From Bacteroidota bacterium (GTDB lineage: Bacteria; Bacteroidota; Ignavibacteria; UBA10030; UBA8401), in NCBI GenBank assembly GCA_030679145.1, contig JAUXTU010000036.1, forward strand, positions 22,480 to 86,479: a DNA stretch of 64,000 nucleotides, written 5' to 3'. Shown here one piece after another: positions 16,655 through 39,121 of this stretch. Positions within the stretch are counted from its first letter, which is position 1; the number at the start of each line of letters is the position of its first letter. The notes under the pieces are model-generated. The model did not search any database. It was not told the origin of the DNA and saw only the letters and a list, made by a program, of their open reading frames with translations. A program made the translations under genes and the position numbers.

Positions 16655-17710
16655 TTAAATCGCTAGTTCAGTGCCAAAATATTTTTTCTTAAAGCGGAGC
16701 GCTACATTAACAAGCAATATCAACACCGGTACTTCAACTAAAGGACCGATCACTGTTGCAAACGCCGCTTGTGAATTTATTCCAAATACGGCAACAGCAA
16801 CAGCGATAGCCAATTCAAAATCGTTACTGCCTGCGGTAAACGCGGTTGTTGTTGTCTTTTCATAACTGTACCCCATTTTTTTCGCAATAAAGAATGTTAC
16901 AAAAAACATTCCTGCAAAATAAAATAAGTATGGGATCGCAACCCGAACGACATCAAGTGGAAGTTCAACGATTTTTTCACCCCTCAGCGAGAACATCACA
17001 AAAATAGTAAACAACAATGCAATCGGGGTAAGAATCGAAATCTTCGGAACGAACTTTTTTTGATACCATTCTTTGTCTTTTATTTTCACTAACGTGGCTC
17101 GCGTTATCATTCCGCCGAAGAAAGGAATACCAAGATAAATAAGTACTGTAACAGCAATTTCCCAAATAGATATTTCTACTAATGTGCCCTGAAATCCAAA
17201 TAAGGGGGGAAGTACAGTGATAAAAACGTAGGCATACACCGAATACAAAAACACTTGAAAGATTGCGTTGAAGGCGACCAATCCGGCTGCAAGTTCGGAA
17301 TCCCCCTTTGCCAAATCATTCCACACCAGTACCATCGCGATACATCGTGCCAATCCGACAAGAATTACACCAATCATCATTTCCGGTTTGTCAGGCAAAA
17401 AAATCATCGCTAAAAAGAACATCACCAACGGACCAACGATCCAATTTTGGATTAACGACAATGAGAGCAATTTTACATTTTTGAAAACAACTGGAAGCTC
17501 TTCATATTTTACTTTTGCAAGAGGCGGATACATCATTAAAATGAGACCGATAGCAATTGGAATATTAGTAGTACCGGAACTCAGTGAATCCCAGAAACCT
17601 GCAATACCGGGAAACAGAGCGCCGGCAGCAACACCAAACGCCATCACAAGAAAAATCCAGAGAGTTAAATAACGGTCAAAGAACGAAAGCTTACCAGATA
17701 TTGTACTCAT
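16655..17710 (-). CDS. acr3: ACR3-type arsenite efflux transporter
   Basis: Ten-helix permease of the BART superfamily that expels arsenite using the membrane potential. Diagnostic motifs are [19 protein letters not shown], with the essential cysteine of helix 4, and [24 protein letters not shown] in helix 9. The 351-residue length is typical. The start overlaps the arsC stop by four bases and has AAGGAATCGCT as ribosome site. It is the last gene of the ars operon. Confidence 0.94.
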
Positions 17711-18141
17711 AGCGATTCCTTTAAAATATTTTCAGTATAGAAACGATAAAAATCTCTTTTGATTTCATCTCTGACTCTTCTAAACACCGCAATGATTTCT
17801 TCTTCTGTTCCCGTTGCATCAGCAGGATCATCGAAGCCGATATGCAGACGATGTTTAACGTTGCCGAAAAACACCGGACAGCTTTCTTTTGCATTATCGC
17901 AGACGGTGATGACATAATCAAATGATTGAGAAAGAAATTGCTCAACAGTCTTTGGATAATTCTGGCTGAGATCGATTCCAATTTTACTCATCACCTGGAT
18001 TGCTTTGGGATGAACCCGCGATGCCGCCTTTGTTCCGGCAGACAACACTTCTAATGATGGATCGAACGATTTGAGAAAACCTTCCGCCATTTGAGAACGG
18101 CAGGAATTTCCGGTGCAGAGAATAAGGATTCGTTTTTTCAT
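17707..18141 (-). CDS. arsC: Arsenate reductase, thioredoxin-coupled (LMW-phosphatase fold)
   Basis: Reduces arsenate to arsenite in the cytoplasm. The P-loop CTGNSCRS holds nucleophile Cys9. The resolving pair Cys81 and Cys88 ([10 protein letters not shown]) marks the thioredoxin-dependent S. aureus type rather than the glutaredoxin type. The 144-residue length is normal. It overlaps acr3 (ATGA), so reduction and efflux are co-produced. A strong hairpin separates it from arsM upstream. Confidence 0.94.
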
Positions 18142-18163
18142 GGGTTCTGTATTTGTAAAAAAA

Positions 18164-18195
18164 TTGTAGAGACGGATAATTATCCGTCTCTACAA
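18164..18195 (-). terminator. 32-bp perfect palindrome with T-run between arsM and arsC
   Basis: TTGTAGAGACGGATAA joined to its exact complement, followed on the minus strand by TTTTTTT. It has the form of an intrinsic terminator or attenuator inside the ars operon, and it may let arsM and arsC-acr3 be expressed at different levels. The GTAGAGACG motif also resembles dispersed repeats of other genomes (from memory). Confidence 0.72.
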
Positions 18196-18211
18196 AATAT
18201 ATTGTAATTGG

Positions 18212-19021
18212 TTATGATTTATCAGCATAAACGTTGATACTGAAAATGCCGACATTATTTTTCTTCAGATCGCGTAATTGATCAAGCGAGATGAATTGAA
18301 GAAGGAGATCGTTCGGAAGATGAATTTCTCTCTCCTTTTGTACTGTGATGTTGATAAATCCTGCGTTCTTAATGATATCAAGATATTCATCCATTTGCTG
18401 TGCACCTGCAACACAGCCGGCATACATCACCGCAGCATTTTTTAATCCGGCTGGAAGTTCTCCCTTTAAGACAATGTCAGAGATTGAAAAATGTCCTCCT
18501 GGTTTTATGATGCGGAATGTTTCCACAAACGCTTTCTCTTTGTTTGGAACGAGGTTCATCACGCAATTGCTCACGACAACATCCACGGAATTGTCTTCAA
18601 CAGGCATCTGTTCAATATCACCAAACCGGAATTCAACATTATTGAATTTCAATTTCAACGCATTTGCACGCGCCTTGTTGATCATCGCTTCGGTCATATC
18701 GACACCGATCACTTTTCCGGTGTTTCCCACGATCGATCGTGCGACGAACGCGTCGTTTCCTGCTCCTGAACCGAGATCGACAACCGTATCGCCGGATTTA
18801 ATCTGAGCAAATTCTGTCGGCAGACCGCAGCCCAAGCCCAGATCGGCATCAGCAACATATCCGGGGAGTTTTGCGTAATCTTCCGCCATCACAACAAAAT
18901 CGGAAGAATTGCATCCGCACGTGCTGCCGCAGCAGGATGTTTCGTTCTGTTCTTTTGATTGCAGTGCGATCTCGCCGTATTTTTCCCTAACGAGATCCTT
19001 CAATTCCTGATCGGTGGACAT
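18212..19021 (-). CDS. arsM: Arsenite S-adenosylmethionine methyltransferase
   Basis: Class I methyltransferase that turns As(III) into methylated arsenicals. SAM motif VVDLGSGAGNDAF; cysteines 65 (LGCGLP), 153 (SNCVMN) and 203 (AGCVAGA) match the As(III)-binding set of ArsM. The N-terminus carries an extra cluster, SCCGSTCGC (29-37). The 269-residue length suits the short bacterial form. An unusually strong ribosome site (AAAGGAGGAAAG) lies within the preceding 23-codon gene, indicating coupled translation. Confidence 0.93.
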   Translation of the reverse strand: MSTDQELKDLVREKYGEIALQSKEQNETSCCGSTCGCNSSDFVVMAEDYAKLPGYVADADLGLGCGLPTEFAQIKSGDTVVDLGSGAGNDAFVARSIVGNTGKVIGVDMTEAMINKARANALKLKFNNVEFRFGDIEQMPVEDNSVDVVVSNCVMNLVPNKEKAFVETFRIIKPGGHFSISDIVLKGELPAGLKNAAVMYAGCVAGAQQMDEYLDIIKNAGFINITVQKEREIHLPNDLLLQFISLDQLRDLKKNNVGIFSINVYADKS

Positions 19022-19022
19022 A

Positions 19023-19094
19023 TTACTTTCCTCCTTTGGAAGGAGAGCAGCAATCTGTTCCGCAGCATGGTTCTTTTGTTTCGGTCGCGTTCAT
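19023..19094 (-). CDS. 23-residue cysteine-rich peptide gene upstream of arsM
   Basis: Too short for the ORF track. It reads MNATETKEPCCGTDCCSPSK followed by GGK and a stop, starting after CAGAGAGGACTTCGTT and ending one base before the arsM ATG. Four of 23 residues are cysteines in a CC-x3-CC pattern resembling the extra N-terminal cluster of ArsM (CCGSTCGC). The ArsR box lies 22 bases upstream. It may be a translated leader that opens the arsM ribosome site, or a real metalloid-binding peptide; the sequence cannot separate these. Confidence 0.6.
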   Translation of the reverse strand: MNATETKEPCCGTDCCSPSKGGK

Positions 19095-19116
19095 AACGAA
19101 GTCCTCTCTGTATAGT

Positions 19117-19132
19117 ATCGTAATATTACGAT
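19117..19132 (-). promoter_or_regulatory. ArsR box ATCGTAATATTACGAT (copy 1)
   Basis: A perfect 16-bp palindrome between arsR and the mini-gene/arsM. It is identical to the core of the box at 19482-19503. A -10-like TACTAT lies just downstream on the minus strand. Confidence 0.8.
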
Positions 19133-19150
19133 TAATGGAAGAAATTTTTT

Positions 19151-19471
19151 TTAACAGCACTTTTTAACGGAAACAACAAAGTTGCCAAGCATCGATTGAA
19201 TTTCAGTCCATCCTTTTACATCGATACAGTAGCAGACCGACGTTCCTTCGATCTCGCCTTTGATCAATCCGGCATTTTTTAATTCACGCAAATGCTGTGA
19301 GACCGTCGATTGTGAGAGTGGAAGTTCGTCTACGATATCACCGCATACGCAGGAATTGCTTTTGGAAAGATATTCCAAAATCGCTATGCGGGCAGGATGA
19401 CCGATTGCTTTTGCCAGTTCTGCAAGGCGATTCTGTTTTGCGGTGAATTCTTCTTTTTTTGTCGTTCCCAT
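19151..19471 (-). CDS. arsR: ArsR-family arsenic-responsive repressor
   Basis: A 106-residue winged-helix repressor: LAKAIGHPARIAILEYLSKSNSCVCGDIVDELPLSQSTVSQHLRELKNAGLI. The NSCVCGDIV segment is the classical As(III)-binding CVC site, and a terminal KKCC gives two more thiols. It is flanked by two identical palindromic boxes, one before itself and one before the mini-gene/arsM, so it should repress both. Confidence 0.9.
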   Translation of the reverse strand: MGTTKKEEFTAKQNRLAELAKAIGHPARIAILEYLSKSNSCVCGDIVDELPLSQSTVSQHLRELKNAGLIKGEIEGTSVCYCIDVKGWTEIQSMLGNFVVSVKKCC

Positions 19472-26091: not shown

Positions 26092-26178
26092 ATTCACAAT
26101 GTGTAGAGTACCATCATTCAACTTTCATTCTTCTCGTTAAGATAACGTCAAGATTATGTTATGGAATATTAAACCAAT

Positions 26179-26206
26179 CGTAACCCTCCGGTAACATCAA
26201 CGTAAC
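26179..26206 (+). promoter_or_regulatory. Pho-box-like repeats upstream of the TonB receptor
   Basis: CGTAAC (26179), GGTAAC (26190) and CGTAAC (26201) at exactly 11-base intervals, 58 bases before the start codon. Same architecture as four other sites in this region. Confidence 0.72.
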
Positions 26207-26263
26207 ATCAAATTCGGATTTTTGTGCCATAAGATTTAATAAACTCTTAAAGGCATAATACCA

Positions 26264-29032
26264 ATGAAACATATCCGAATATCAACGATATCTTTTATAA
26301 CACTTCTTTTATCACTTACTGCTTTTTCGCAAGAACAAAGCGATTTAGACAAAATCAGACAACAACAAAATCAAACTGGAGGGACTTTATCCGGCAAGAT
26401 TGTCGATCAACAATCAGGCGAAGATATTATTGGAGCCAATATTTTTATTGTAAGCACAAAACTTGGTGCATCAACTGATATAGACGGCAAATTTATCATC
26501 AAAAAAATCCCTGAAGGAAAATACAATGTTCGAATTTCGTTTCTTGGCTATGAAACAAAGAATATTTCCGATGTTGAGATCAAATTGAGTGAAAATACAT
26601 CATTGAACGTAAGTATTGGCGAAGATCAAGGAATCCAACAGCAGGAAGTTGTTGTTAGCGCAAACGCAATTAAATCAGGCGAAGGAGCAATTCTTGCTGA
26701 GCGCAAAAAAGCAGCAAGTATAGGCGACGGCATCAGCTCCGAACAGATGAAAAAAGCTCCCGACGCAACCAGCGGTGATGCATTAAAACGGGTAACGGGT
26801 GTTACGATTGTGGATAATAAGTTTGTTTTTGTCCGCGGTGTTACCGACCGGTACAACCAAACAACATTGAATGGCGCATCTGTCCCTAGTACAAGCGTTG
26901 ATAAAAAGAGCTTCTCATTCGATATGCTCCCTTCAAATCTACTCGATAATATGAATATTGCAAAGACCGCTTCACCGGACCTTCCGGGAGATTTTACCGG
27001 CGGTTTGGTTCAGATCAATACGTTAGATATTCCAGAACAGTTATCAATTAAAATAATGTCAGGCGGATCGATGAATTCGATCACCACGTTCAAAGATTTT
27101 CACCGCTCTCAGGGTGGTGCATCAGATTGGATCGGAAACGATGATGGAACACGATTATATCCCGCGCAAAAAATCTCCATTTCTGATCTCGGAAAAACTC
27201 TTCCTAATTCCTGGGGATCGAATCTTAAGAAAGGTCTGATTGCGCAGTCGTTCAGTGTTTCAATAGGAGACAGGGTTGATTTTGAGGAAGATCAACTCGG
27301 GATCATTGCCGCGTTAACATACCGAAATAATTTTCAACACTCTAATTTCGGTATCAAAGAATACGGCGGCGGACAATTACGCAGGGATGTTAGCGGGTTT
27401 TCGGATAAAGTTTCTGTGTTGTGGGGAGGAATTTTTGATATGAGTTATAAACTTGGAGAGCTTAATAAGTTCAGTATCAAAAATAATTATAATCGCTCAG
27501 CAGAAGATAAAGTATATATCATGAGCGGATATAAAGCTGATGATGATGAAAATATAAGATCCTATCAAACAGAATGGGAACAACGAGGAATGTATTCCGG
27601 TCAGATATCCGGAGAACATCAGTTGCCGGAACTCTTCAACACAAAAATTGATTGGATGACTAATTTCTCACAGGCGCGAACAGAACAACCGGATAGAAAA
27701 GAACTGGTCTATTCTGCCTCACCATATTCAGATCAACCAATGATTGCAAAGCCCGGGGAACGATCATGGGGAAATATTTACGAAAAGACCGTCGGGCAGA
27801 AAATGAATATTGCCATTCCCACAGAAACAATGAAATTTAAATTCGGAGTATTCAATGAACGCCGGACAAAGAATTTCAGCATGAAGTTTTATCAAGTAAG
27901 CAGCAACAATCTTTCATCGGAAAACTTTATTATGACGACGTATGCTGTCGATTCAATTTATCGCCAGGAGAATTTTGGTCCCGGAAAATTCTCACTTATG
28001 TCTTTCGATAACTCCAGCGGTGCGTATGATGCTGAACAGGATCTATTCGCATACTACGGAATGATAGACATTCCATTTTCAATCATCGGTCAGAGTTTTC
28101 GTTTCACCGGCGGGGTGAGAATTGAAAAATCACGGCAGGAAATATCGACTGCTCAAGGCCGTTTAGGTTCTTCCTCGATCAGTTCATATCTCTATAATTC
28201 GGACATGCTTCCCTCGGCAAATATTACTTATATGATTGATGAACAGCAGAATATACGCGTTGCATACAGTCAAACCGTTAATCGTCCTGAATTTCGTGAA
28301 CGTTCAGCATTCTATTATTACGATTTCGATAAATCAGAATATGTACGAGGAAATTCCCAGCTTTCCCGAGCACTTATCAGAAATTACGATCTCCGATATG
28401 AAATATTTCCTTCGTTCGGAGATGTCATTGCCGCAAGCTATTTCTATAAATCATTCACCAATCCGATTGAAGAAGCGAGAACATACACTTCATTCGTGGA
28501 AAGAACCTGGATCAATGCTGTAAAGGGTAAAAATTATGGATGGGAATTTGAAGTCAGAAAGAATCTTTCATTCTTGAGTGAATATTTTATGTCATCTTCC
28601 ATTGTTGCGAATTATACAAGAATCATTTCTTCTATCCCATTCAGAGAGAACAAAGGAAATTCATCGCTTCAACAGATCATTGAAGGCGAACGCCAAATGC
28701 AGGGACAATCACCGTATATGTATAATATATCCTTCTCATTTGTTGAACCGACTCTTGGCACATCGTTAAACATTCTCTATAACGAATATGGTTCACGCAT
28801 TGATGCGATCGGAGATGTAAAAGCGGGAGACGGCGATGTGTATGAACAGAAACGAGGCACAGTTGATCTTTCAATTTCGCAGCCGTTGGGAATATTGATG
28901 AAAGGGCTTGAATGGAAATTCGCTGCAAAGAATCTCAACAACCAGCCGATCGTGTATACTCAAGGCAACGATGTATACCGAACAAACTTTGTTGGGACTA
29001 ATTATTCAATGCAGCTTAGTTATTCATTTTAA
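26264..29032 (+). CDS. TonB-dependent receptor, probable phosphate-starvation receptor
   Basis: 922-residue outer-membrane receptor: signal peptide (MKHIRISTISFITLLLSLTAFSQ), carboxypeptidase-like domain (GKIVDQQSGEDIIGANIFIV, about 40-120), plug (DATSGDALKRVTGVTIVDNKFVFVRGVTDRYNQTTLNGASVP), and barrel ending in TNYSMQLSYSF with terminal Phe. It is preceded by three 11-bp-spaced Pho-like repeats and followed by a beta-helix surface protein under a similar box. I infer uptake of a phosphorylated or phosphate-linked compound during starvation; the substrate itself is not visible. Confidence 0.88.
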   Translation: MKHIRISTISFITLLLSLTAFSQEQSDLDKIRQQQNQTGGTLSGKIVDQQSGEDIIGANIFIVSTKLGASTDIDGKFIIKKIPEGKYNVRISFLGYETKNISDVEIKLSENTSLNVSIGEDQGIQQQEVVVSANAIKSGEGAILAERKKAASIGDGISSEQMKKAPDATSGDALKRVTGVTIVDNKFVFVRGVTDRYNQTTLNGASVPSTSVDKKSFSFDMLPSNLLDNMNIAKTASPDLPGDFTGGLVQINTLDIPEQLSIKIMSGGSMNSITTFKDFHRSQGGASDWIGNDDGTRLYPAQKISISDLGKTLPNSWGSNLKKGLIAQSFSVSIGDRVDFEEDQLGIIAALTYRNNFQHSNFGIKEYGGGQLRRDVSGFSDKVSVLWGGIFDMSYKLGELNKFSIKNNYNRSAEDKVYIMSGYKADDDENIRSYQTEWEQRGMYSGQISGEHQLPELFNTKIDWMTNFSQARTEQPDRKELVYSASPYSDQPMIAKPGERSWGNIYEKTVGQKMNIAIPTETMKFKFGVFNERRTKNFSMKFYQVSSNNLSSENFIMTTYAVDSIYRQENFGPGKFSLMSFDNSSGAYDAEQDLFAYYGMIDIPFSIIGQSFRFTGGVRIEKSRQEISTAQGRLGSSSISSYLYNSDMLPSANITYMIDEQQNIRVAYSQTVNRPEFRERSAFYYYDFDKSEYVRGNSQLSRALIRNYDLRYEIFPSFGDVIAASYFYKSFTNPIEEARTYTSFVERTWINAVKGKNYGWEFEVRKNLSFLSEYFMSSSIVANYTRIISSIPFRENKGNSSLQQIIEGERQMQGQSPYMYNISFSFVEPTLGTSLNILYNEYGSRIDAIGDVKAGDGDVYEQKRGTVDLSISQPLGILMKGLEWKFAAKNLNNQPIVYTQGNDVYRTNFVGTNYSMQLSYSF

Positions 29033-29055
29033 CTTGATCGTATATATTTTATTTC

Positions 29056-29085
29056 AAAGGGAATCAGTTATTGATTCCTTTTTTT
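29056..29085 (+). terminator. Terminator of the TonB receptor gene
   Basis: AAAGGGAATCA gtta TTGATTCCTTTTTTT, a hairpin with T-run 24 bases after the stop codon. Confidence 0.8.
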
Positions 29086-29096
29086 ATTTACACAAA

Positions 29097-29124
29097 CGTA
29101 ACGTTACATTCACGGTAAGATAAA
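29097..29124 (+). promoter_or_regulatory. Pho-box-like repeats upstream of the beta-helix protein
   Basis: CGTAAC (29097), ATTCAC (29108) and GATAAA (29119), again 11 bases apart; weaker than the other sites. ATTCAC also appears as a half-site at 32067. Confidence 0.55.
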
Positions 29125-29214
29125 ACAGTATTAATAAATTGATGTGAAATAAAAAATTATTCCATTGCAAATTTTAATCACAATTCACATTCAATCAATA
29201 TGAAAGGATCCACA

Positions 29215-30909
29215 ATGAAGAAACTTTCACTGCTTGGCACACTGTTCCTTGTTGTGTCATTAGCGTTTGCCTTACCACGTCCCACAAAAGTGATCGGTGC
29301 CGGTTTAGGTGCTGCTGCCAAAACAGCGTTCAATCTTACTGCAGGAAAATCGATTACGCTTTCCCGCGACACCATCTATATCCTTACCGGTTTTTATTAT
29401 GTTGATTCTCTTGCAACACTAACGATACAATCCGGCACAGTGATCATGGGAGACAGTGCGACAAACGGTACATTGATCATTCGTCGCGGCGGGAAGATAT
29501 TTGCCGATGGAACAAAATCAGAGCCGATCGTTTTCACCTCTTCAAAACCTGCAGGTCAACGCAAACGCGGCGATTGGGGTGGAGTAATAATTCTTGGAAG
29601 CGCACCGACAAATAAACCGGTGACAAACAAGATCGAAGGAATTGATGTTGGGGGCGAATACGGCGGATCAGTTTCAAACGATAACAGCGGTATATTTCGA
29701 TATGTTCGTATTGAATATCCGGGAATTGTTATCTCGTTGAACAACGAGATCAATGGTTTAACAATGGGCGGTGTTGGAAGTGGAACAACGATTGAGTATG
29801 TGCAGGTCACAAATTCCGGTGATGATTCATTTGAATGGTTCGGCGGTACAGTTGATGCAAAATACCTTATTGCACTCAATGGTACGGATGATGAATTTGA
29901 TACCGACTTTGGTTATTCTGGAAAAGTACAATTTGCATTTGGAAAACGCGATCCTAATCTTTGGGATGCAGCCGGTCAGTCCAACGGATTCGAGTCGGAT
30001 AATGATGGAACACCGACAACGGCTGCACCATTAACATCACCCGTATTCTCAAATGTTACACTTGTAGGTCCTCAAGCTGATACGAACGTTGCTTTACCCG
30101 TCGGTCATAAATTTGAATATGGAGCGTTGATACGAAAAAATACAAGATTAAGCGTTCACAATTCAATCATTATAGGTTATCCATATGGAATCTCCATTCG
30201 TAATGATTCTACAGCAGCATATGCACTTCAAGGAAATTTACAGATCAGAAATGTAAGTCTGCAGGCTCGCACGAATGTTCTGAACACAGCAACTGTTGCC
30301 GGTGCAGTCGGATTTAATTTTGCTACATTCTTCGGAACCGCAGGATGGAATAATCTTGGCGATACTCCTCGTCAACCCGCTGCAATTGCGCTTGTCGATG
30401 CGTTCAATGCGTCGAATCCTGATGTCCGACCGACTGTTTCATCCGAAGCGACAACAACAGGAACAAATTACAGCAGTACGCAATTAACAAATCCATTCTT
30501 TACACAAGTAAGTTATCGCGGTGCATTCGATCCCTCGAAAGCGAAAGATCAGCAATGGGATTTTGGCTGGTCAAATTATGCACCGCAAAACAAAGATTAC
30601 AGCAACGGAACAACAGATGTTCAATCCATCGGTCAATTCATGCCAAATGAATATTCGCTCGGTCAGAATTTTCCGAATCCGTTCAATCCTGCAACGACCA
30701 TACAATATAAACTTCCGGTCAATGGAAACGTTACATTGAAAGTATTCAACATCATCGGGCAAGAAGTAACAACACTGGTGAATGAGTTTCAAACCACCGG
30801 TGCGTATTCAGTTTCGTTTGATGCATCGAAACTTTCGTCAGGGATTTATTTTTACAGCTTGAAAACTCAAGAGTATTCGCAAACCAAAAAAATGATGCTG
30901 TTGAAATAA
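29215..30909 (+). CDS. Secreted right-handed beta-helix protein with T9SS tail
   Basis: Start taken at the ATG at 29215 (MKKLSLLGTLFLVVSLAFA), which has GAAAGGATC in front; the track start at 29200 overlaps that ribosome site. The mature protein resembles repeat-rich parallel beta-helix surface proteins (LTIQSGTVIMGDSATNGTLIIRRGGKIFADGT, then GVIILGSAP, VTNSGDDSFEWFGGTVDAKYL). It ends in NFPNPFNPATTIQYKLPVNGNVTLKVFNIIG, a T9SS sorting domain. Sitting between a TonB receptor and a phosphoesterase under a Pho-like box, it may bind or present a phosphorus source at the surface. That is inference; no catalytic motif was seen. Confidence 0.82.
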   Translation: MKKLSLLGTLFLVVSLAFALPRPTKVIGAGLGAAAKTAFNLTAGKSITLSRDTIYILTGFYYVDSLATLTIQSGTVIMGDSATNGTLIIRRGGKIFADGTKSEPIVFTSSKPAGQRKRGDWGGVIILGSAPTNKPVTNKIEGIDVGGEYGGSVSNDNSGIFRYVRIEYPGIVISLNNEINGLTMGGVGSGTTIEYVQVTNSGDDSFEWFGGTVDAKYLIALNGTDDEFDTDFGYSGKVQFAFGKRDPNLWDAAGQSNGFESDNDGTPTTAAPLTSPVFSNVTLVGPQADTNVALPVGHKFEYGALIRKNTRLSVHNSIIIGYPYGISIRNDSTAAYALQGNLQIRNVSLQARTNVLNTATVAGAVGFNFATFFGTAGWNNLGDTPRQPAAIALVDAFNASNPDVRPTVSSEATTTGTNYSSTQLTNPFFTQVSYRGAFDPSKAKDQQWDFGWSNYAPQNKDYSNGTTDVQSIGQFMPNEYSLGQNFPNPFNPATTIQYKLPVNGNVTLKVFNIIGQEVTTLVNEFQTTGAYSVSFDASKLSSGIYFYSLKTQEYSQTKKMMLLK

Positions 30910-30931
30910 TATTGCTCCTTATACCAACGAC

Positions 30932-30956
30932 AAAAAGCCTCATCATGAGGCTTTTT
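30932..30956 (+). terminator. Terminator of the beta-helix protein gene
   Basis: AAAAAGCCTC atcat GAGGCTTTTT, a 10-bp perfect stem 22 bases after the stop. Confidence 0.88.
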
Positions 30957-30982
30957 GCGTTTCAGGAAACAGAATGATCTTT

Positions 30983-30999
30983 CATAACAAAAAGGTAAC
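30983..30999 (+). promoter_or_regulatory. Pho-box-like repeats upstream of the metallophosphoesterase
   Basis: CATAAC (30983) and GGTAAC (30994), 11 bases apart, 46 bases before the start codon. Confidence 0.6.
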
Positions 31000-31044
31000 A
31001 TCATCTTCAAGGAAGCATGATGTTGCAACGGTATCTTTGTTTCA

Positions 31045-31995
31045 ATGAAAAAGACATTTACCATTGCACATCTTTCGGATCTTCATTTAAGCCCAGATTT
31101 TTTTCCTGAACGTTCAAGGCATTTTCGTTCCATTCTTTCATTTTGCAAACAACGCCAGGTCGATCATATCATCATTACCGGAGATATTACGAATCAGGCA
31201 AAAGAAAATGAGTTCGATCATTTTCGAAAGATTTTAAGAGAGTTTTCACTGCTCGACAGCAAAAAAATAACAGTAATTAATGGTAATCATGATATTTTTG
31301 GTGGACCATATTATGCTGAGGATGTTCTCAGTTTTCCAACGGCATGCAAATCAACAGATTATGCAGAGAAGATGGATCAGTTCTATCGTTATACAAAAGA
31401 GACATTCACTTCAACAAAATTTTTCTCTGAAAAAAGCTTTTTTCCATTTCTTAAAGTTGTTGGAGACATTGCAATTGTAGGGTTAAACTCGGTGGCAGAG
31501 TGGCACGCCGTCAAGAATCCGATTGGCTCGAACGGGAAGATCAATAGTGAACAATTTAAAAGTCTGCGCGAGCTGCTCAACTGCGAAGAAATAAAAAAGA
31601 AAAAAATATTTATTGCAATTCATCACCACTTCTCGGCTAAAAGCGATGTTGATCATTCTTCAACAATGGAACGAATATGGTCTGCGGTAGAATCTGCGAC
31701 GTTAAAACTGCGAAAGAAGAAAAGACTGTTGAAATTATTTACCAAAGCGAATGTTGCCAAAGTGCTTCACGGTCATGTTCACCATCATGGAATGTATAAA
31801 AAAGAAGGAATCACATTTGTCAACGCCGGGGCCACGATTGTTCCCGCAAAAAACTCGCAACAAGCATTTCACTTTATCAACGTACGAGAAGAGTGTATCG
31901 AAACAGAGAATATTGTAATCCCGGCACAGTTGAAGTCATATCAAAAAAAAGAAATACCTTTACGCAATATTCGTAAAAGCCTTGCCATTGCGTGA
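31045..31995 (+). CDS. Calcineurin-like metallophosphoesterase
   Basis: A 316-residue dimetal phosphoesterase. Motifs appear in order: ISDLHLS-type AHLSDLHLSPD (about 8-18), GDITNQAKENEF, NGNHDIFGG, AIHHHF and HGHVHHHG. The overall form is closest to the CpdA/3',5'-cyclic phosphodiesterase class. There is no signal peptide, so it is probably cytoplasmic, releasing phosphate from imported phosphoesters or turning over a nucleotide signal. A Pho-like repeat lies directly upstream. Confidence 0.88.
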   Translation: MKKTFTIAHLSDLHLSPDFFPERSRHFRSILSFCKQRQVDHIIITGDITNQAKENEFDHFRKILREFSLLDSKKITVINGNHDIFGGPYYAEDVLSFPTACKSTDYAEKMDQFYRYTKETFTSTKFFSEKSFFPFLKVVGDIAIVGLNSVAEWHAVKNPIGSNGKINSEQFKSLRELLNCEEIKKKKIFIAIHHHFSAKSDVDHSSTMERIWSAVESATLKLRKKKRLLKLFTKANVAKVLHGHVHHHGMYKKEGITFVNAGATIVPAKNSQQAFHFINVREECIETENIVIPAQLKSYQKKEIPLRNIRKSLAIA

Positions 31996-32044
31996 TGATA
32001 GTAAACAGGACTTACCTCTCCATCTCTATTGCTTCATATAGAAT

Positions 32045-32072
32045 ATTAACAAAAAATTAACACTGTATTCAC
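32045..32072 (+). promoter_or_regulatory. Pho-box-like repeats upstream of the PhoB-like regulator
   Basis: ATTAAC (32045), ATTAAC (32056) and ATTCAC (32067), 11 bases apart. This is close to the TTAACA-N5-TTAACA form known from other phyla, and sits 52 bases before the start codon. Confidence 0.75.
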
Positions 32073-32123
32073 ATTAACCTAATGGTAAGCGATGATATTA
32101 TTGATATATAATCTGAGTCTACT

Positions 32124-32435
32124 ATGGAACGAATCGCAATAAAACAAATCATCATTGATCCGGAACGCTTCGTTGTTATGAAAGAAGGTTCGAAGGTTAT
32201 TCTGACAAAAACGGAGTTTTTTATTTTGTATCTCATGATGAGCACAAAAGGAAAGATCCAATCCAGAAATGCTATTTCTAAATTTGCATGGGGGTTGGAA
32301 TCATTGGACCGCCCAAGGACCATTGATACTCATATCAGTAATATTCGAAGAAAGATTGGAAGAATAGATGAAAAGGAGATCATCACCGTCATAAAAGGTG
32401 TTGGATATAAGTTGGACGATTCATTAGTTGAATAA
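32124..32435 (+). CDS. Stand-alone PhoB/OmpR-type DNA-binding domain (no receiver)
   Basis: 103 residues that are entirely a winged-helix Trans_reg_C domain: VILTKTEFFILYLMMSTKGKIQSRNAISKFAWG, then RPRTIDTHISNIRRKIG and ITVIKGVGYKL. The usual 120-residue receiver with its phospho-Asp is missing, and nothing upstream within 128 bases encodes one, so it is not a simple frameshift. Pho-like repeats precede it and a strong terminator follows. It may be the Pho activator working without phosphorylation, or a competitor for the boxes. Confidence 0.85.
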   Translation: MERIAIKQIIIDPERFVVMKEGSKVILTKTEFFILYLMMSTKGKIQSRNAISKFAWGLESLDRPRTIDTHISNIRRKIGRIDEKEIITVIKGVGYKLDDSLVE

Positions 32436-32494
32436 CGTCATCCGTTAAACAAAGCTCTTGGTGCATTTGAAATATCCCATTTCAAAATACTCGT

Positions 32495-32537
32495 AAAAAA
32501 ACAAAAGGCAGAATAGCATTCTGCCTTTTGTTTTTTT
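32495..32537 (+). terminator. Strong terminator after the PhoB-like gene
   Basis: AACAAAAGGCAGAAT agc ATTCTGCCTTTTGTT, a very long, nearly perfect stem with A/T tails on both sides. Confidence 0.9.
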
Positions 32538-32569
32538 ACATTATTCCCAAAATAATTGGGAGAATAAGT

Positions 32570-33001
32570 ATGAGCGACAAACGGGTTACATGGAACGAAT
32601 ATTTTATGAACATTGCGGAACAAGTGGCGACACGGAGTACGTGCAGCAGAAAAAATGTCGGTGCAGTGATCGTGCGTGACAAGACGATCCTTTCCACGGG
32701 GTATAACGGCAGTCTGCGCGGTGCACCGCATTGCGATGAAGCGGGACATGATATGGAGAATGATCATTGTGTCCGCACGGTGCATGCTGAAGCAAATGCA
32801 GTTGCGCAAGCCGCTAAACATGGCGTCAGGATTGATGAATCTGAAATCTATGTAACTGCGTCTCCATGCTTAACCTGCTTTAAATTGATTGCGAACAGCG
32901 GAATTCGAAAAATATTCTTTAAGGAATTTTATCGAGATAATCGAATTACGGAATATGCGCAACAGGCAGGAGTTACGCTGGTGTTCATGGAAAAGAGGTA
33001 A
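32570..33001 (+). CDS. Deoxycytidylate (dCMP) deaminase
   Basis: Zinc deaminase converting dCMP to dUMP for thymidylate synthesis. The zinc and catalytic motifs are TVHAEANAV (HAE) and SPCLTC (PCxxC); RSTCSRKNVGAVIVRD and GYNGSLRGAPHCDE are typical of the ComEB/dCMP deaminase family. The start is the ATG at 32570 with GGGAGAATA before it; the track start at 32528 lies inside the terminator. It is flanked by its own terminators and probably unrelated to the Pho genes around it. Confidence 0.92.
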   Translation: MSDKRVTWNEYFMNIAEQVATRSTCSRKNVGAVIVRDKTILSTGYNGSLRGAPHCDEAGHDMENDHCVRTVHAEANAVAQAAKHGVRIDESEIYVTASPCLTCFKLIANSGIRKIFFKEFYRDNRITEYAQQAGVTLVFMEKR

Positions 33002-33027
33002 GAAAATATTTATACAAGAACAACGAA

Positions 33028-33059
33028 TAAAAAAGTCAGGTGTAATGCCTGATTTTTTT
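33028..33059 (+). terminator. Terminator of the dCMP deaminase gene
   Basis: AAAAAGTCAGG tgtaatg CCTGATTTTTTT hairpin with T-run. Confidence 0.85.
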
Positions 33060-33072
33060 GTTTTAAACAAAT

Positions 33073-33111
33073 GTTAACAATTTAGTAATGCAGTGGTAAA
33101 CTATAGATAAT
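33073..33111 (+). promoter_or_regulatory. Pho-box-like repeats upstream of the porin-pst operon
   Basis: GTTAAC (33073), AGTAAT (33084), GGTAAA (33095) and GATAAT (33106), four half-sites at 11-base steps before the OprP-like gene. No similar box precedes pstS, so the porin and pst genes probably share this promoter. Confidence 0.7.
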
Positions 33112-33175
33112 GTATTTTTGGCAATTTCTTGACGTTATCTATACAATACAATCCGTCATTCTTAAGGAAAACATC

Positions 33176-34591: not shown

Positions 34592-35413
34592 ATGAAAAAA
34601 TTCATTGCAATTATTTTACTCTTTTCAATCTCCTCATTGTTATTTGCAGAAGATGTCATCACCGTAAAAGGTTCAGATACAATGGTGATCCTGGCGCAGC
34701 GATGGGCGGAATTGTATATGAAGAAAAACCCCGAAGTTACTATTCAAGTGACAGGCGGCGGATCCGGAACAGGAATTTCCGCATTGATCAACGGTACGAC
34801 CGATATCTGTAATGCCTCGCGTCCGATGAAACCGAGCGAAAAACAGAAATTGAAACACCGCTTCAGCAGTCTTGGTGTAGAAATTAAAACCGCAAAAGAT
34901 GGCATCGCGATCTACGTAAGTGAAAAGAATCCGATCAAAGAGTTGACCGTACAACAAGTGAAAGATATTTATACCGGAAAGATTACCAATTGGAAAGAAG
35001 TTGGCGGAATTGATTCACGAATTATTCTATACAGCCGTGAGAACAATTCCGGAACATATGTGTACTTCAAAGAGAATGTTTTAGATGATGAAGATTATTC
35101 CCCAAGTTGTCAGAATATGCCCGGAACAGCGGCTCTGGTAAACGCTATTTCAAAGGATCCGAATGGAATTGGTTATGGCGGAGCAGCTTATGCAAAGGGA
35201 ATTCGTGAAGTTCCAGTAAAAGCGGATGAGAATTCATCTGCATATTTACCGAATGCAGAAAATGTAAAGTCGGGACAATATCCGATCACACGGTTCTTGT
35301 TTATGTATGTGAAAAGCAAGCCAACCGGTGCGATGAAAGAATATATTGACTGGATATTGAGCGAAGAAGGACAAAGCATTGTTGTCAAGGTCGGTTATTT
35401 CCCGCTCCGATAA
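34592..35413 (+). CDS. pstS: Phosphate ABC transporter, substrate-binding protein
   Basis: Periplasmic phosphate-binding protein: signal peptide (MKKFIAIILLFSISSLLFA), then VKGSDTMVILAQRWAELYMKKNPEVTIQVTGGGSGTGISALINGTTDICNASR, the phosphate-binding core, and SRENNSGTYVYFKENVL. The 273-residue length is that of the short PstS class. The ribosome site is AAAAGGAACC. It passes phosphate to PstC/PstA/PstB encoded directly downstream. Confidence 0.95.
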   Translation: MKKFIAIILLFSISSLLFAEDVITVKGSDTMVILAQRWAELYMKKNPEVTIQVTGGGSGTGISALINGTTDICNASRPMKPSEKQKLKHRFSSLGVEIKTAKDGIAIYVSEKNPIKELTVQQVKDIYTGKITNWKEVGGIDSRIILYSRENNSGTYVYFKENVLDDEDYSPSCQNMPGTAALVNAISKDPNGIGYGGAAYAKGIREVPVKADENSSAYLPNAENVKSGQYPITRFLFMYVKSKPTGAMKEYIDWILSEEGQSIVVKVGYFPLR

Positions 35414-35440: not shown

Positions 35441-36487
35441 ATGGAAATCCCCAAAACAATTACAAACACAATGATGAAAAAGCGATTCCGCTTGAGCGAA
35501 TTTCTGGCGGAAAAACTTATCACGGCAACGGCGTTCATTTCGTTCGCATTCATTGTGTTGATCTTTGTCTTCGTATTCAGGGAAACACTTCCAATTTTCT
35601 CTGCACCTGAACCGGCTGTTTCGTTGGAAGAATTGGGAGAGCAGGAAACGTACGGTGATATTGTTTTAAGTGATGCTGAACGTGCGGCAGAAGAAAAAGA
35701 AAAAACGAAAGTTGCAGCCGAAGAAGGGGTGACAGTAGAAAATCTTGCCGGTGACCGTTGGCAGCCGATCTCCGGTAAACCGAAATACGGGCTGCTTCCA
35801 TTGATCGTCGGAAGTTTAAAGATATCGCTTATTTCAATATTCTTTGCTGCGCCGATTGCAATTCTTGCAGCATTATTTACCGCGGCATTTGCTCCACGAT
35901 GGGCAAAGGAAACATTAAAACCGGCGATAGAAATCCTTGCAGGATTTCCATCTGTCGTTATCGGCTTTTTTGCTCTGGTAGTTCTTGCAACATTTGTTCA
36001 GGATATATTTGGTCTTGAATATCGGTTGAATGCATTTGTCGGTGGATTAGCATTGTCACTTGCAGTTATTCCGATTATTTACACAATTTCTGAAGATGCA
36101 ATCTCTGCAATTCCAAAATCTCTTACCGAAGCAAGCCTTGCACTTGGCGCAACAAAATGGCAGACAGCGTTGAAGGTAATTCTTCCCGCAGCTACGCCGG
36201 GAATATTTGCAGCAATATTACTTGGAGTTGGGCGAGCATTTGGTGAAACAATGATCGTGTTAATGGCAACCGGGAATGCGGCACTGTTGTCAGCGAATCC
36301 ATTCGAACCGGTTCGCACAATGTCAGCAACGATCGGTGCAGAGATGGCAGAAGTTGTTTTTGGCGAAACGCACTACAATGTCTTGTTCTTAATCGGTTCA
36401 ATTCTTTTTCTGTTCACTTTCACCCTTAACGCGATCGCTGAAATATTTATCCGGCAGCGGTTGATGAAAAAATTCAGAGGAAGCTGA
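35441..36487 (+). CDS. pstC: Phosphate ABC transporter permease PstC
   Basis: Inner-membrane permease with the ABC transporter loop SLTEASLALGATKWQTALKVILPAATPGI (EAA motif). After the first helix a long acidic extracytoplasmic insertion is seen (EELGEQETYGDIVLSDAERAAEEKEKTKVAAEEG), about 80 residues before the next membrane segment. The alternative start MMKKRF at 35471 is possible, as neither has a clear ribosome site. Its stop overlaps the pstA start by one base. Confidence 0.94.
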   Translation: MEIPKTITNTMMKKRFRLSEFLAEKLITATAFISFAFIVLIFVFVFRETLPIFSAPEPAVSLEELGEQETYGDIVLSDAERAAEEKEKTKVAAEEGVTVENLAGDRWQPISGKPKYGLLPLIVGSLKISLISIFFAAPIAILAALFTAAFAPRWAKETLKPAIEILAGFPSVVIGFFALVVLATFVQDIFGLEYRLNAFVGGLALSLAVIPIIYTISEDAISAIPKSLTEASLALGATKWQTALKVILPAATPGIFAAILLGVGRAFGETMIVLMATGNAALLSANPFEPVRTMSATIGAEMAEVVFGETHYNVLFLIGSILFLFTFTLNAIAEIFIRQRLMKKFRGS

Positions 36488-37389
36488 TGACCAAGAAAAA
36501 ACTCCTCGGCGGATTTGTGTATGGAACTACCGCATTCTTTGCGTTTATTATTATTGCGGCTGTTGTTATTGTTATGACCAATATTGTTGCCGGTGGATGG
36601 TCGAGTTTGACAAAAGATTTTTTACTTGGATCACCCGAAGAAGGAATGACCAAGGGAGGGATTTTCCCGGCGATCGTTGGAACATTCTTGTTGGTAATGA
36701 TCATGTCCATTGCAGGAGTGCCAATAGGAACAATGACAGCGATCTATTTGAGTGAATACGCAAGCCAAAAATCGATCTTTGCTCGATTGATTCGATTCGC
36801 AGTGAACACGCTCGCTGGTGTTCCCGCAATCGTGTTCGGATTGTTCGGTCTCGGTTTTTTCATTCAATTTATTGGAACTCGTGTTGACGGAGTTTTGTAT
36901 AATAATGGAGAGCTGCACTGGGGACAGCCAAATATTCTGTGGGCGAGTTTAACAATGGCGTTATTGACGCTTCCGGTTGTGATCGTTTCTGTTGAAGAGG
37001 CGATCAAAACCGTGCCGAGAGAATTGCGCGAAGCATCGTTGGCACTTGGCGCAACAAAATGGCAGACGATTAGAAAAGTGGTTATTCCAAATTCTATTAC
37101 CGGAATATTGACGGGAGCAATTCTTGCCGTGAGCCGCGGCGCAGGCGAGGTTGCACCGATCCTGTTCACTGGTGCGGCATATTTTCTTCCGCATCTTCCG
37201 TCGGGACTATCGGATCAGTTCATGGAATTAGGATATCATATCTATATTATGGCGACACAATCGCCGGATGTGGAAGCGACACGAGGAATTCAATATGCAA
37301 CGACACTCGTCTTGCTCATCTTGACATTTACATTGAATTTCTCAGCGATCTTTTTGCGGTATAAATTACGAAAACGAATAATAACGTAA
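36487..37389 (+). CDS. pstA: Phosphate ABC transporter permease PstA
   Basis: 300-residue inner-membrane partner of PstC, with the EAA loop PRELREASLALGATKWQTIRKVVIPNSITGILTGAILAVSRGAGEVAPIL. About six transmembrane helices. It is coupled to pstC by TGATG. The pstB gene follows after 144 bases occupied by a palindromic repeat. Confidence 0.95.
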   Translation: MTKKKLLGGFVYGTTAFFAFIIIAAVVIVMTNIVAGGWSSLTKDFLLGSPEEGMTKGGIFPAIVGTFLLVMIMSIAGVPIGTMTAIYLSEYASQKSIFARLIRFAVNTLAGVPAIVFGLFGLGFFIQFIGTRVDGVLYNNGELHWGQPNILWASLTMALLTLPVVIVSVEEAIKTVPRELREASLALGATKWQTIRKVVIPNSITGILTGAILAVSRGAGEVAPILFTGAAYFLPHLPSGLSDQFMELGYHIYIMATQSPDVEATRGIQYATTLVLLILTFTLNFSAIFLRYKLRKRIIT

Positions 37390-37533: not shown

Positions 37534-38322
37534 ATGTATTCACATTCTTACAAAACATTACAGCCGACAGATGTTAGGATCAAGACCGAACATCTCAATA
37601 TTTATTACGGAAAAAAACAAGCAATAAAAGATGTAAGTCTTGATATGTTCACTCATCGTGTAACAGCGCTGATCGGACCTTCGGGGTGCGGGAAGTCGAC
37701 GTATCTCCGATCGTTGAACAGGATGAATGATCTGATCGAAAATTCCCGGACGGAGGGAAACGTTCTTCTTGACGGAGTGAATATCTACGATAAACAAGTG
37801 GATGTTGTGGAACTTCGAAAAAAAGTAGGAATGATCTTCCAAAAATCGAATCCATTTCCGAAATCGATCTTTGAAAATGTTGCGTACGGACCGCGCATCA
37901 ACGGCATGAACGATAAAAAGAAATTAGAGGATATCGTTGAACGCTCGTTGAAGCAAGCCGCGCTGTGGGAAGAAGTGAAAGACGATCTTGCAAAGAGCGG
38001 TCTCTCGCTTTCCGGTGGACAGCAGCAGCGTTTATGTATCGCTCGTGCACTCGCTGTGGATCCCGAAATATTGCTGATGGATGAACCGGCAAGCGCTCTT
38101 GATCCCATTGCAACCGCAAAGATCGAAGAACTGATCTATGAGTTGAAAAATACATATACTATCGTTATCGTTACTCACAACATGCAGCAGGCAGCACGCG
38201 TGAGCGATTACACCGGATTTTTTTATATGGGTGAATTGATCGAGTTCGATGAGACAAAAAAAATATTTACCATGCCTGCAAAGAAACAGACAGAAGATTA
38301 TATTACAGGACGATTCGGGTGA
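37534..38322 (+). CDS. pstB: Phosphate ABC transporter ATP-binding protein
   Basis: ATPase of the Pst importer: Walker [10 protein letters not shown], PstB-specific [10 protein letters not shown], signature LSGGQQQR, Walker [13 protein letters not shown] and H-loop VTHNMQQA. 262 residues, usual length. It is cytoplasmic at the membrane. Confidence 0.96.
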
Positions 38323-38458: not shown

Positions 38459-39121
38459 ATGGAACGACATTTTCAACGGGATCTTGAACAGTTAAAATCC
38501 AATGTCATCAAAATGGGAAGTGCGGTGGAACAAAATCTGATCGATGCGTTGGATGCTGTACTCAATAACGATCCGGTACTTGCATCTAAAGTGATCTCAT
38601 CAGACGGGAAGATCAATCAATTTGAGATCGATATCGACAATGGTGTTGTAGATATTCTCGCGCTGCAGCAGCCAGTTGCAAGTGATCTCCGTTTAATACT
38701 GGCAATACAAAAGATCAATAACGACCTGGAGCGCATTGGCGATCATGCGGTGAACATTGCGGAATCTGCATACCGATTGACAGAAACGCCGCAAGATGAA
38801 CCTCTGTTGGAAATTCCGAACATGGCAAAGATTGCAAAAGAGATGTTTCAGCAAGCGCTGGATAGTTTCATCCACTTAAATGCTCAGCTTGCGCAAAGCG
38901 TATTGGAGAGTGATGACCGTATTGACGCGCTCAATCGCGGAATGAACTCACAGGTGGTCAAGTTCATTAAAAAAGATCTGAAGAGCATCGAAGGTGGATT
39001 GGAACTTCTTCGCATCAGCAGAAATTTGGAACGCGTTGCCGATCTTACAACGAACATTGCGGAAGAAGTGCTCTTCCATACACAAGCGAGAGTTGTAAAA
39101 CATCATGCTGAAGAGAAATGA
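38459..39121 (+). CDS. phoU: Phosphate-signalling protein PhoU
   Basis: A 220-residue double three-helix bundle: ERHFQRDLEQLKSNVIKMGSAVEQNL at the start, and the two metal-binding motifs DLRLILAIQKINNDLERIGDHAVNIAE and GLELLRISRNLERVADLTTNIAEE. It restrains Pst uptake and kinase signalling when phosphate is sufficient. AAGGAAAAAATT precedes the ATG. It is last in the pst operon; the next gene converges. Confidence 0.96.
   Translation: MERHFQRDLEQLKSNVIKMGSAVEQNLIDALDAVLNNDPVLASKVISSDGKINQFEIDIDNGVVDILALQQPVASDLRLILAIQKINNDLERIGDHAVNIAESAYRLTETPQDEPLLEIPNMAKIAKEMFQQALDSFIHLNAQLAQSVLESDDRIDALNRGMNSQVVKFIKKDLKSIEGGLELLRISRNLERVADLTTNIAEEVLFHTQARVVKHHAEEK

Follow-up and report, generated by a model that had tools for sequence, protein, structure and literature searches.

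Which regulator governs the phosphate gene cluster of a Bacteroidota bacterium of the class Ignavibacteria (assembly GCA_030679145.1), and are its operators peculiar to this lineage? The question is raised by 64,000 nucleotides of contig JAUXTU010000036.1 (positions 22,480 to 86,479), the whole of which was analyzed and is called the window throughout. The initial annotation had proposed that a TAAC-core hexamer, repeated in exact 11-base steps, precedes a TonB-dependent receptor, a type IX secretion system (T9SS) beta-helix protein, a metallophosphoesterase, a PhoB-like protein and an oprP-pstSCAB-phoU operon, and that these five sites represent a lineage-specific form of the Pho box, the operator of the phosphate regulator PhoB. 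All five were found at the proposed places, on the plus strand, intergenic and each ahead of its named gene. We regard the sites as PhoB-operator promoters of one Pho regulon with a probability of roughly 0.93. The boxes, their spacing, their coupling to a promoter element, the gene content and the conservation were all established by computation.

Structure of the repeat sites

Each site consists of three to five [CG][GT]TAAC-like hexamers in 11-bp steps, and a TAnnTTTG-like element follows 16 bp past the start of the last hexamer. Site 1, before the TonB receptor gene, covers positions 26168-26206 with four hexamers starting at 26168, 26179, 26190 and 26201. Site 2 (29086-29124) precedes the gene for the T9SS protein with the units ATTTAC, CGTAAC, ATTCAC and GATAAA (starts 29086, 29097, 29108, 29119), and site 3 (30983-31021) the metallophosphoesterase gene with CATAAC, GGTAAC, CTTCAA and CATGAT (starts 30983, 30994, 31005, 31016). 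Site 4 (32045-32094), before the gene for the PhoB-like protein, contains ATTAAC, ATTAAC, ATTCAC, CCTAAT and GCGATG (starts 32045, 32056, 32067, 32078 and, in brackets, 32089); here an out-of-phase pair, ATTAAC/GGTAAG at 32073 and 32084, overlaps the array. Site 5 (33073-33111), before oprP-pst, is made up of GTTAAC, AGTAAT, GGTAAA and GATAAT (starts 33073, 33084, 33095, 33106). Exact TAAC repetition at every 11-base step, as claimed initially for all sites, was observed in full at site 1 only; the others hold one to three good units, with the remainder degenerate (e.g. ATTCAC, CTTCAA, CATGAT).

A second array lies back to back with site 1 on the minus strand (26120-26172; units CATAAC, CTTGAC and CTTAAC; 16.4 bits and E 0.05 genome-wide with the profile R1 described below). 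It adds three further upstream half-sites, best read on the minus strand and in the same 11-bp register, in the analyzed genome (G000) and in three relatives (G004, G006, G007), and its TTAA, GTCAAGA and TTA words are invariant in these four genomes. Since no minus-strand gene of at least 80 amino acids using this array was found among the open reading frames of the window, we read it as an operator extension of the TonB receptor promoter.

Statistical support for the boxes

Bare pairs of the core were not enriched. Within the window TAAC-N7-TAAC with one mismatch occurred 41 times versus 40 expected, and GGTAA pairs 45 times versus 37 expected. Simple pair patterns (GGTAA-N6-GGTAA, TAAC-N7-TAAC) were dropped as evidence because of this chance frequency, and a stronger test was therefore required. 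A search for GTAAC pairs in the whole genome gave 150 matches at no more than one mismatch and was uninformative. Significance derived from a first matrix built on the window itself was circular, and this matrix was replaced by models from other genomes.

For the spacing, 57 loci encoding PstS relatives were taken from a collection of 84,980 genomes and the upstream DNA of 40 of them was counted, with the motif fixed and the distance left free. Pairs of [GT]TAAC on the gene strand peaked at 11 bp (n=10), 22 bp (n=5) and 33 bp (n=10), with 0-3 pairs at each other distance between 5 and 45 bp. In most loci with a clear match, the best three-unit match was located directly ahead of a porin or pst operon.

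Profile R1 was built ungapped over 58 columns from 32 boxes of other genomes, with the own genome excluded and promoters of the same genus included. It describes four n[TG]TAACA units in 11-bp steps followed by GTATnTTT, with the TA of the latter beginning 16 bp past the start of the final hexamer. All genome-wide statistics given here are profile-search E-values of rough calibration. In the whole genome of 3.83 Mb, seven matches at E<0.01 were obtained, namely the five sites, the promoter of phoB on contig C76 and one position on contig C120. Site 1 was the best match of the genome (30.2 bits, E 2.1e-6), followed by sites 3 and 4 (20.3 bits, E 0.003 each) and sites 2 and 5 (19.7 bits, E 0.0045 each). 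Searching the window by itself, the five sites were the five best matches (30.2, 20.3, 20.2, 19.8 and 19.7 bits), the opposite array was the sixth and the next one reached 10.2 bits. The mirror-image control R2, consisting of the R1 columns in reversed order, yielded no match above 13.8 bits (E 0.29) in the whole genome. As R1 contains promoters of the same genus, profile R3 was made from 14 sequences, all outside the family. Its six best matches in the window were the five sites, with 25.6 bits for site 1, and the opposite array, and these stayed within the top ten of the genome.

Lower-scoring genome matches on contigs C49, C28, C75, C13 and C53, in or away from phosphate genes, were taken as noise. 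One weak candidate (E 0.18) was observed ahead of a second TonB-dependent receptor on contig C21 (967-1002; locus L182).

Coupling to the -7 promoter element

The -7 consensus of Bacteroidetes is TAnnTTTG. With this consensus as fixed query and with boxes of other genomes selected by their hexamers and not by the -7 element, matches accumulated at two offsets from the third hexamer, +16 and +27, and exceeded each of 2000 shuffles there. At +27, 9 of 34 boxes showed at least 5 of 6 TAnnTTTG matches, compared to a maximum of 4 in the 2000 shuffles.

In the window, a clear element in this position was found for site 1 (GATTTTTG, 26217-26224) and for site 3 (TATCTTTG, 31032-31039), the latter by sequence and profile alignment. 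The same alignment gave the -7-like TAAATTGA (29135-29142) for site 2. The in-phase slots of the two remaining sites hold weak elements: a possible -10/-7 element TATATAAT at 32105-32112 for site 4, the assignment being uncertain with 32094-32101 as alternative, and the -7-like CAATTTCTTG at 33122-33131 for site 5, which is similar in G001, G006 and G007. As TATCTTTG ends only 5 bp ahead of the ATG at 31045, the metallophosphoesterase mRNA may be leaderless. Pho boxes of Escherichia coli precede the -10 element by about 10 bp (PMC1906773). The fixed 16-bp geometry is that of a PhoB-activated promoter and puts the last hexamer at the place that PhoB occupies in E. coli.

PhoB, PhoR and the distribution of the boxes

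A full PhoB and an adjacent PhoR/PnpS-type kinase are encoded outside the window on contig C76 (locus L132). The genome thus combines PhoB and PhoR with a box at the phoB promoter, as is typical of a Pho regulon, and phoB is preceded by a box in five genomes of the family (the own genome G000, G004, G005, G010 and G015). Boxes at E<=0.01 were found in 20 of 22 family genomes and at E<=0.001 in 75 of the 98 genomes of the order, the relatives being labelled as Ignavibacteriae or Bacteroidota metagenome-assembled genomes. The family genes behind them comprise phoB, porin genes, genes for PAP2 phosphatases and for one type I phosphodiesterase, and pst operons, in which PstS is of one or the other of two types. 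Outside the family, 18 of 19 strong matches with enough readable DNA face pst or porin-pst genes.

The lineage-specific form held in one respect only, as hexamers of this genus frequently have G as their second base. The general form, CTTAACA-N4/5, is spread over the order and was observed also in Flavobacterium and at loci bearing the labels Zixibacteria and Thermodesulfovibrionales; it comes close to the cyanobacterial box.

Genes downstream of the boxes

Pfam domains and NCBIfam cut-offs assigned the genes downstream, all on the plus strand. The TonB-dependent receptor (26264-29032) shows CarbopepD_reg_2, Plug and beta-barrel domains, and homologues were found near oprP-pst in L032, L033, L035, L046 and Flavobacterium soyangense (L049). 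Its neighbor (29200-30909) is a secreted protein with a Por_Secre_tail and is a homologue of the TonB receptor neighbor in Flavobacterium; in F. soyangense the homologues of the pair, near oprP-pst, match at 31% and 36%, respectively, the latter over 565 amino acids. The calcineurin-like metallophosphoesterase (PF12850/PF00149; 31045-31995) reached no NCBIfam model above its cut-off and no match in a PDB sequence search. It carries PF12850 and a Pho box and may be a PlcP, a lipid-remodelling cytoplasmic phosphoesterase of the PF12850 type that is induced by low phosphate; its homologue in G018 is box-preceded as well.

Site 5 places high-affinity phosphate transport under a box. The ATG at 33110 predicted as oprP start falls within this site and the signal peptide is encoded from GTG 33176 onward, which is therefore the likely start of the OprP/OprO-type porin gene (PF07396; 33176-34540). 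It is followed by the genes for PstS (34592-35413; TIGR02136), PstC (35441-36487; TIGR02138), PstA (36487-37389; TIGR00974), PstB (37534-38322; TIGR00972) and PhoU (38459-39121; TIGR02135), all above cut-off. In relatives, an additional PstS-like gene that is oriented the other way is located between the T9SS protein gene and the winged-helix gene (L125:8119-8940, L126:7349-8083, L127:3543-4355, L129:11922-12665); it is missing from the window. In G007, genes for OlsB and OlsA of ornithine-lipid synthesis (L126:13042-14627, minus strand) were found ahead of the TonB receptor gene, and olsB has another box in front of it, which would suggest membrane lipid replacement within the same regulon. 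Similar olsB/olsA reading frames occur in G004 and none were found in the window.

A receiver-less PhoB-type protein

The gene behind site 4 (32124-32435, plus strand) encodes a PhoB-type winged-helix DNA-binding protein of 103 amino acids with Trans_reg_C as its only domain. The label PhoB-like is correct for this domain, but the protein is not PhoB, as it is devoid of a receiver and the full PhoB is encoded on another contig. Among the seven Trans_reg_C proteins of the genome it is the only one without a receiver; none was detected at its N-terminus, and the in-frame upstream sequence is too short in all orthologues. Among the NCBIfam regulator models, it fits the DNA-binding half of Bacteroidetes PhoB best. 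The recognition helix RT(I/V)DxHI is as in PhoB, with its conserved HI followed mostly by SN in place of RK/RR. Matches in the PDB include PhoB (1gxp), with ArlR and others scoring higher there. In 8 of the 22 genomes of the family, an orthologue well separated from every response regulator was found, and all of these are without a receiver. Most adjoin oprP; that of G006 closes the pst operon, and that of G015 is divergent from the metallophosphoesterase gene with no pst nearby. A box scored by R1 precedes the gene in G000, G006, G007, G015 and G019; by eye, a degenerate in-phase array is visible in G001 and G012 and none is clear in G004.

We think that this protein most likely acts as an amplifier, as the effector domain of E. 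coli PhoB binds DNA constitutively when its receiver is removed (PMC4415409). A competitor would be nearly as likely, and the direction of the effect is speculative. As a damper, the protein would occupy the boxes without good recruitment of polymerase, compete with PhoB and limit the response. The missing receiver, the part that pairs PhoB on DNA, the altered residues after HI and the Pho box before its own gene, negative feedback being common, speak for such a role. Nevertheless, constitutive binding fits an activator equally well, and we hold the damper somewhat less likely than not.

Comparison with known Pho systems and alternative explanations

The sites resemble the E. coli Pho box in having at least two 11-bp direct units upstream of the -10 element, the last about 10 bp before it, and in their targets pst-phoU and phoB (PMC4415409; PMC1906773). 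They differ from it in the hexamer, [CG][GT]TAAC versus a TGTCAT core, in usually having four units and in a TAnnTTTG-like element in place of TATAAT. No E. coli-type CTGTCAT core was found in the boxes, their core being TAAC; the Pho-box core is known to vary between species (PMC4415409). Closer is the box of cyanobacterial SphR, CTTAACCT, with three tandem 8-bp repeats and 3-bp linkers (PMC1906773). It shares the TTAAC core, at least three repeats, the 11-bp period and the pst genes, whereas the boxes of this genus often have G at hexamer position 2 and are coupled to a Bacteroidota-type -7 element. A literature search, with most subscription journals outside its coverage, found no described Bacteroidetes Pho box.

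The gene content resembles the PhoBR cluster (PUSIV) of Flavobacterium johnsoniae, where a TonB receptor (PF07715, PF13715) adjoins a pectin-lyase-fold exoprotein together with oprP and phoBR (PMC8115612). When phosphate was depleted, this pair showed log2 inductions of 8.0 and 9.9, and a PF12850 phosphoesterase called PlcP was also strongly induced (PMC8115612). By homology to these data, the genes of the window would be induced likewise. In F. johnsoniae phoBR is part of the cluster, while here it is found on another contig and a receiver-less PhoB domain takes its place; the exoprotein of the window has a T9SS tail, unlike that of F. johnsoniae. The text of the F. johnsoniae paper mentions no Pho box or motif (PMC8115612). 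The FI-FIII proteins of F. johnsoniae were reported to be related to ElpS, a surface lipoprotein of phosphate-starved Caulobacter (PMC8115612, PMC2996285). Release of ElpS depends on a type II secretion system, which sets it apart from the T9SS-tailed protein of the window; any relation between the two would run via FI-FIII.

Several observations weigh against the assignment to PhoB. With R3, sites 2, 3 and 5 drop to E 0.3-1.7 genome-wide, and sites 2-5 are degenerate and reach only 19.7-20.3 bits with R1. The own PhoB and PhoR match PhoB/PhoR-type models best, yet below the curated cut-offs (PhoB 241 bits versus 270 for Bacteroidetes PhoB). Finally, OprP itself was not induced in F. johnsoniae (PMC8115612).

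Proteins of the OmpR/PhoB family generally bind direct repeats of roughly 10-11 bp. The boxes might consequently belong to another regulator of this type sharing Pho targets, as the genome encodes six full-length family members besides the receiver-less one. Against this, the box occurs in different families and further afield ahead of genes for Pst proteins, PhoB, porins and phosphatases, and ahead of phoB itself in the five genomes named above, which makes another regulator very improbable. Chance, i.e. TAAC words falling at 11-bp steps in AT-rich intergenic DNA, would agree with the frequency of bare pairs in the window, but for the sites taken together it is refuted by the mirror-image control, the independent-genome profiles, the 11/22/33 periodicity, the phase-locked -7 element and the conservation, and its probability is practically nil. 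The Pho-box reading was supported by these profiles and this control, by the phosphate genes that follow the box in other genera and families, by the box before phoB and by the fixed spacing to the -7 element.

Further observations

The remaining strong match of the genome (C120:691-747) precedes a 30-codon open reading frame on the minus strand, MEHKELIYFALACLFLFVTLWDSSRSKRSL (C120:582-671; locus L181), which is missed by ordinary gene calling. The protein is encoded in eight family genomes, in seven with the box at the same place, and pairwise comparisons showed the second codon positions to be the least variable. It looks like a small membrane-type protein and, judged from sequence, is likely a new Pho-regulon member made on phosphate starvation.

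Within the window, genes resembling those for arsenate reductase, arsenite methyltransferase and ArsR were recognized by reading of the translations only at 17707-19471, a few kb from the phosphate cluster. A protein of 927 amino acids (43121-45904, minus strand) reads as a putative DNA methyltransferase or combined restriction-modification enzyme (NPPF motif).

Proposed mechanism and significance

We infer PhoB as the binder, a response to phosphate and a contact with the sigma factor. At low phosphate, the PhoR-type kinase would phosphorylate PhoB, both encoded on contig C76. PhoB would then bind head to tail to three to five hexamers, which are spaced by 11 bp so that each helical turn carries one. 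The last of them would replace the -33 element, 16 bp (start to start) upstream of the TAnnTTTG-like -7 element. Bound PhoB would contact the housekeeping sigma factor and thereby drive transcription of the TonB receptor, the T9SS protein, the metallophosphoesterase, the receiver-less gene and oprP-pstSCAB-phoU, as well as of its own gene. Once phosphate is back, PstSCAB and PhoU would switch the kinase off. The receiver-less PhoB domain, made only with the regulon on, would most likely bind the same or similar boxes unphosphorylated and prolong or boost the response. Tentatively, and at somewhat less than even odds, it may be a second-tier regulator, which is switched by PhoB, takes over the same 11-bp arrays unphosphorylated and gives the system a memory (or a brake), with the TonB receptor promoter and its seven in-phase half-sites in two orientations as a high-occupancy node.

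Given the parallels in F. johnsoniae and F. soyangense and a TAAC core near that of the cyanobacterial box, the regulon is ordinary in kind and its form is not confined to this lineage; its odd extra part is a stripped-down copy of the master regulator. For a large, mostly uncultured Bacteroidota-type group, a tested profile of box plus -7 element now allows phosphate-starvation genes to be called from sequence alone. Pairs of TonB receptor and exoprotein, known from expression data of Flavobacterium, are linked in another lineage with a defined operator. In addition, two unstudied parts of the regulon are exposed, the receiver-less PhoB domain and the 30-residue protein of apparent membrane type.

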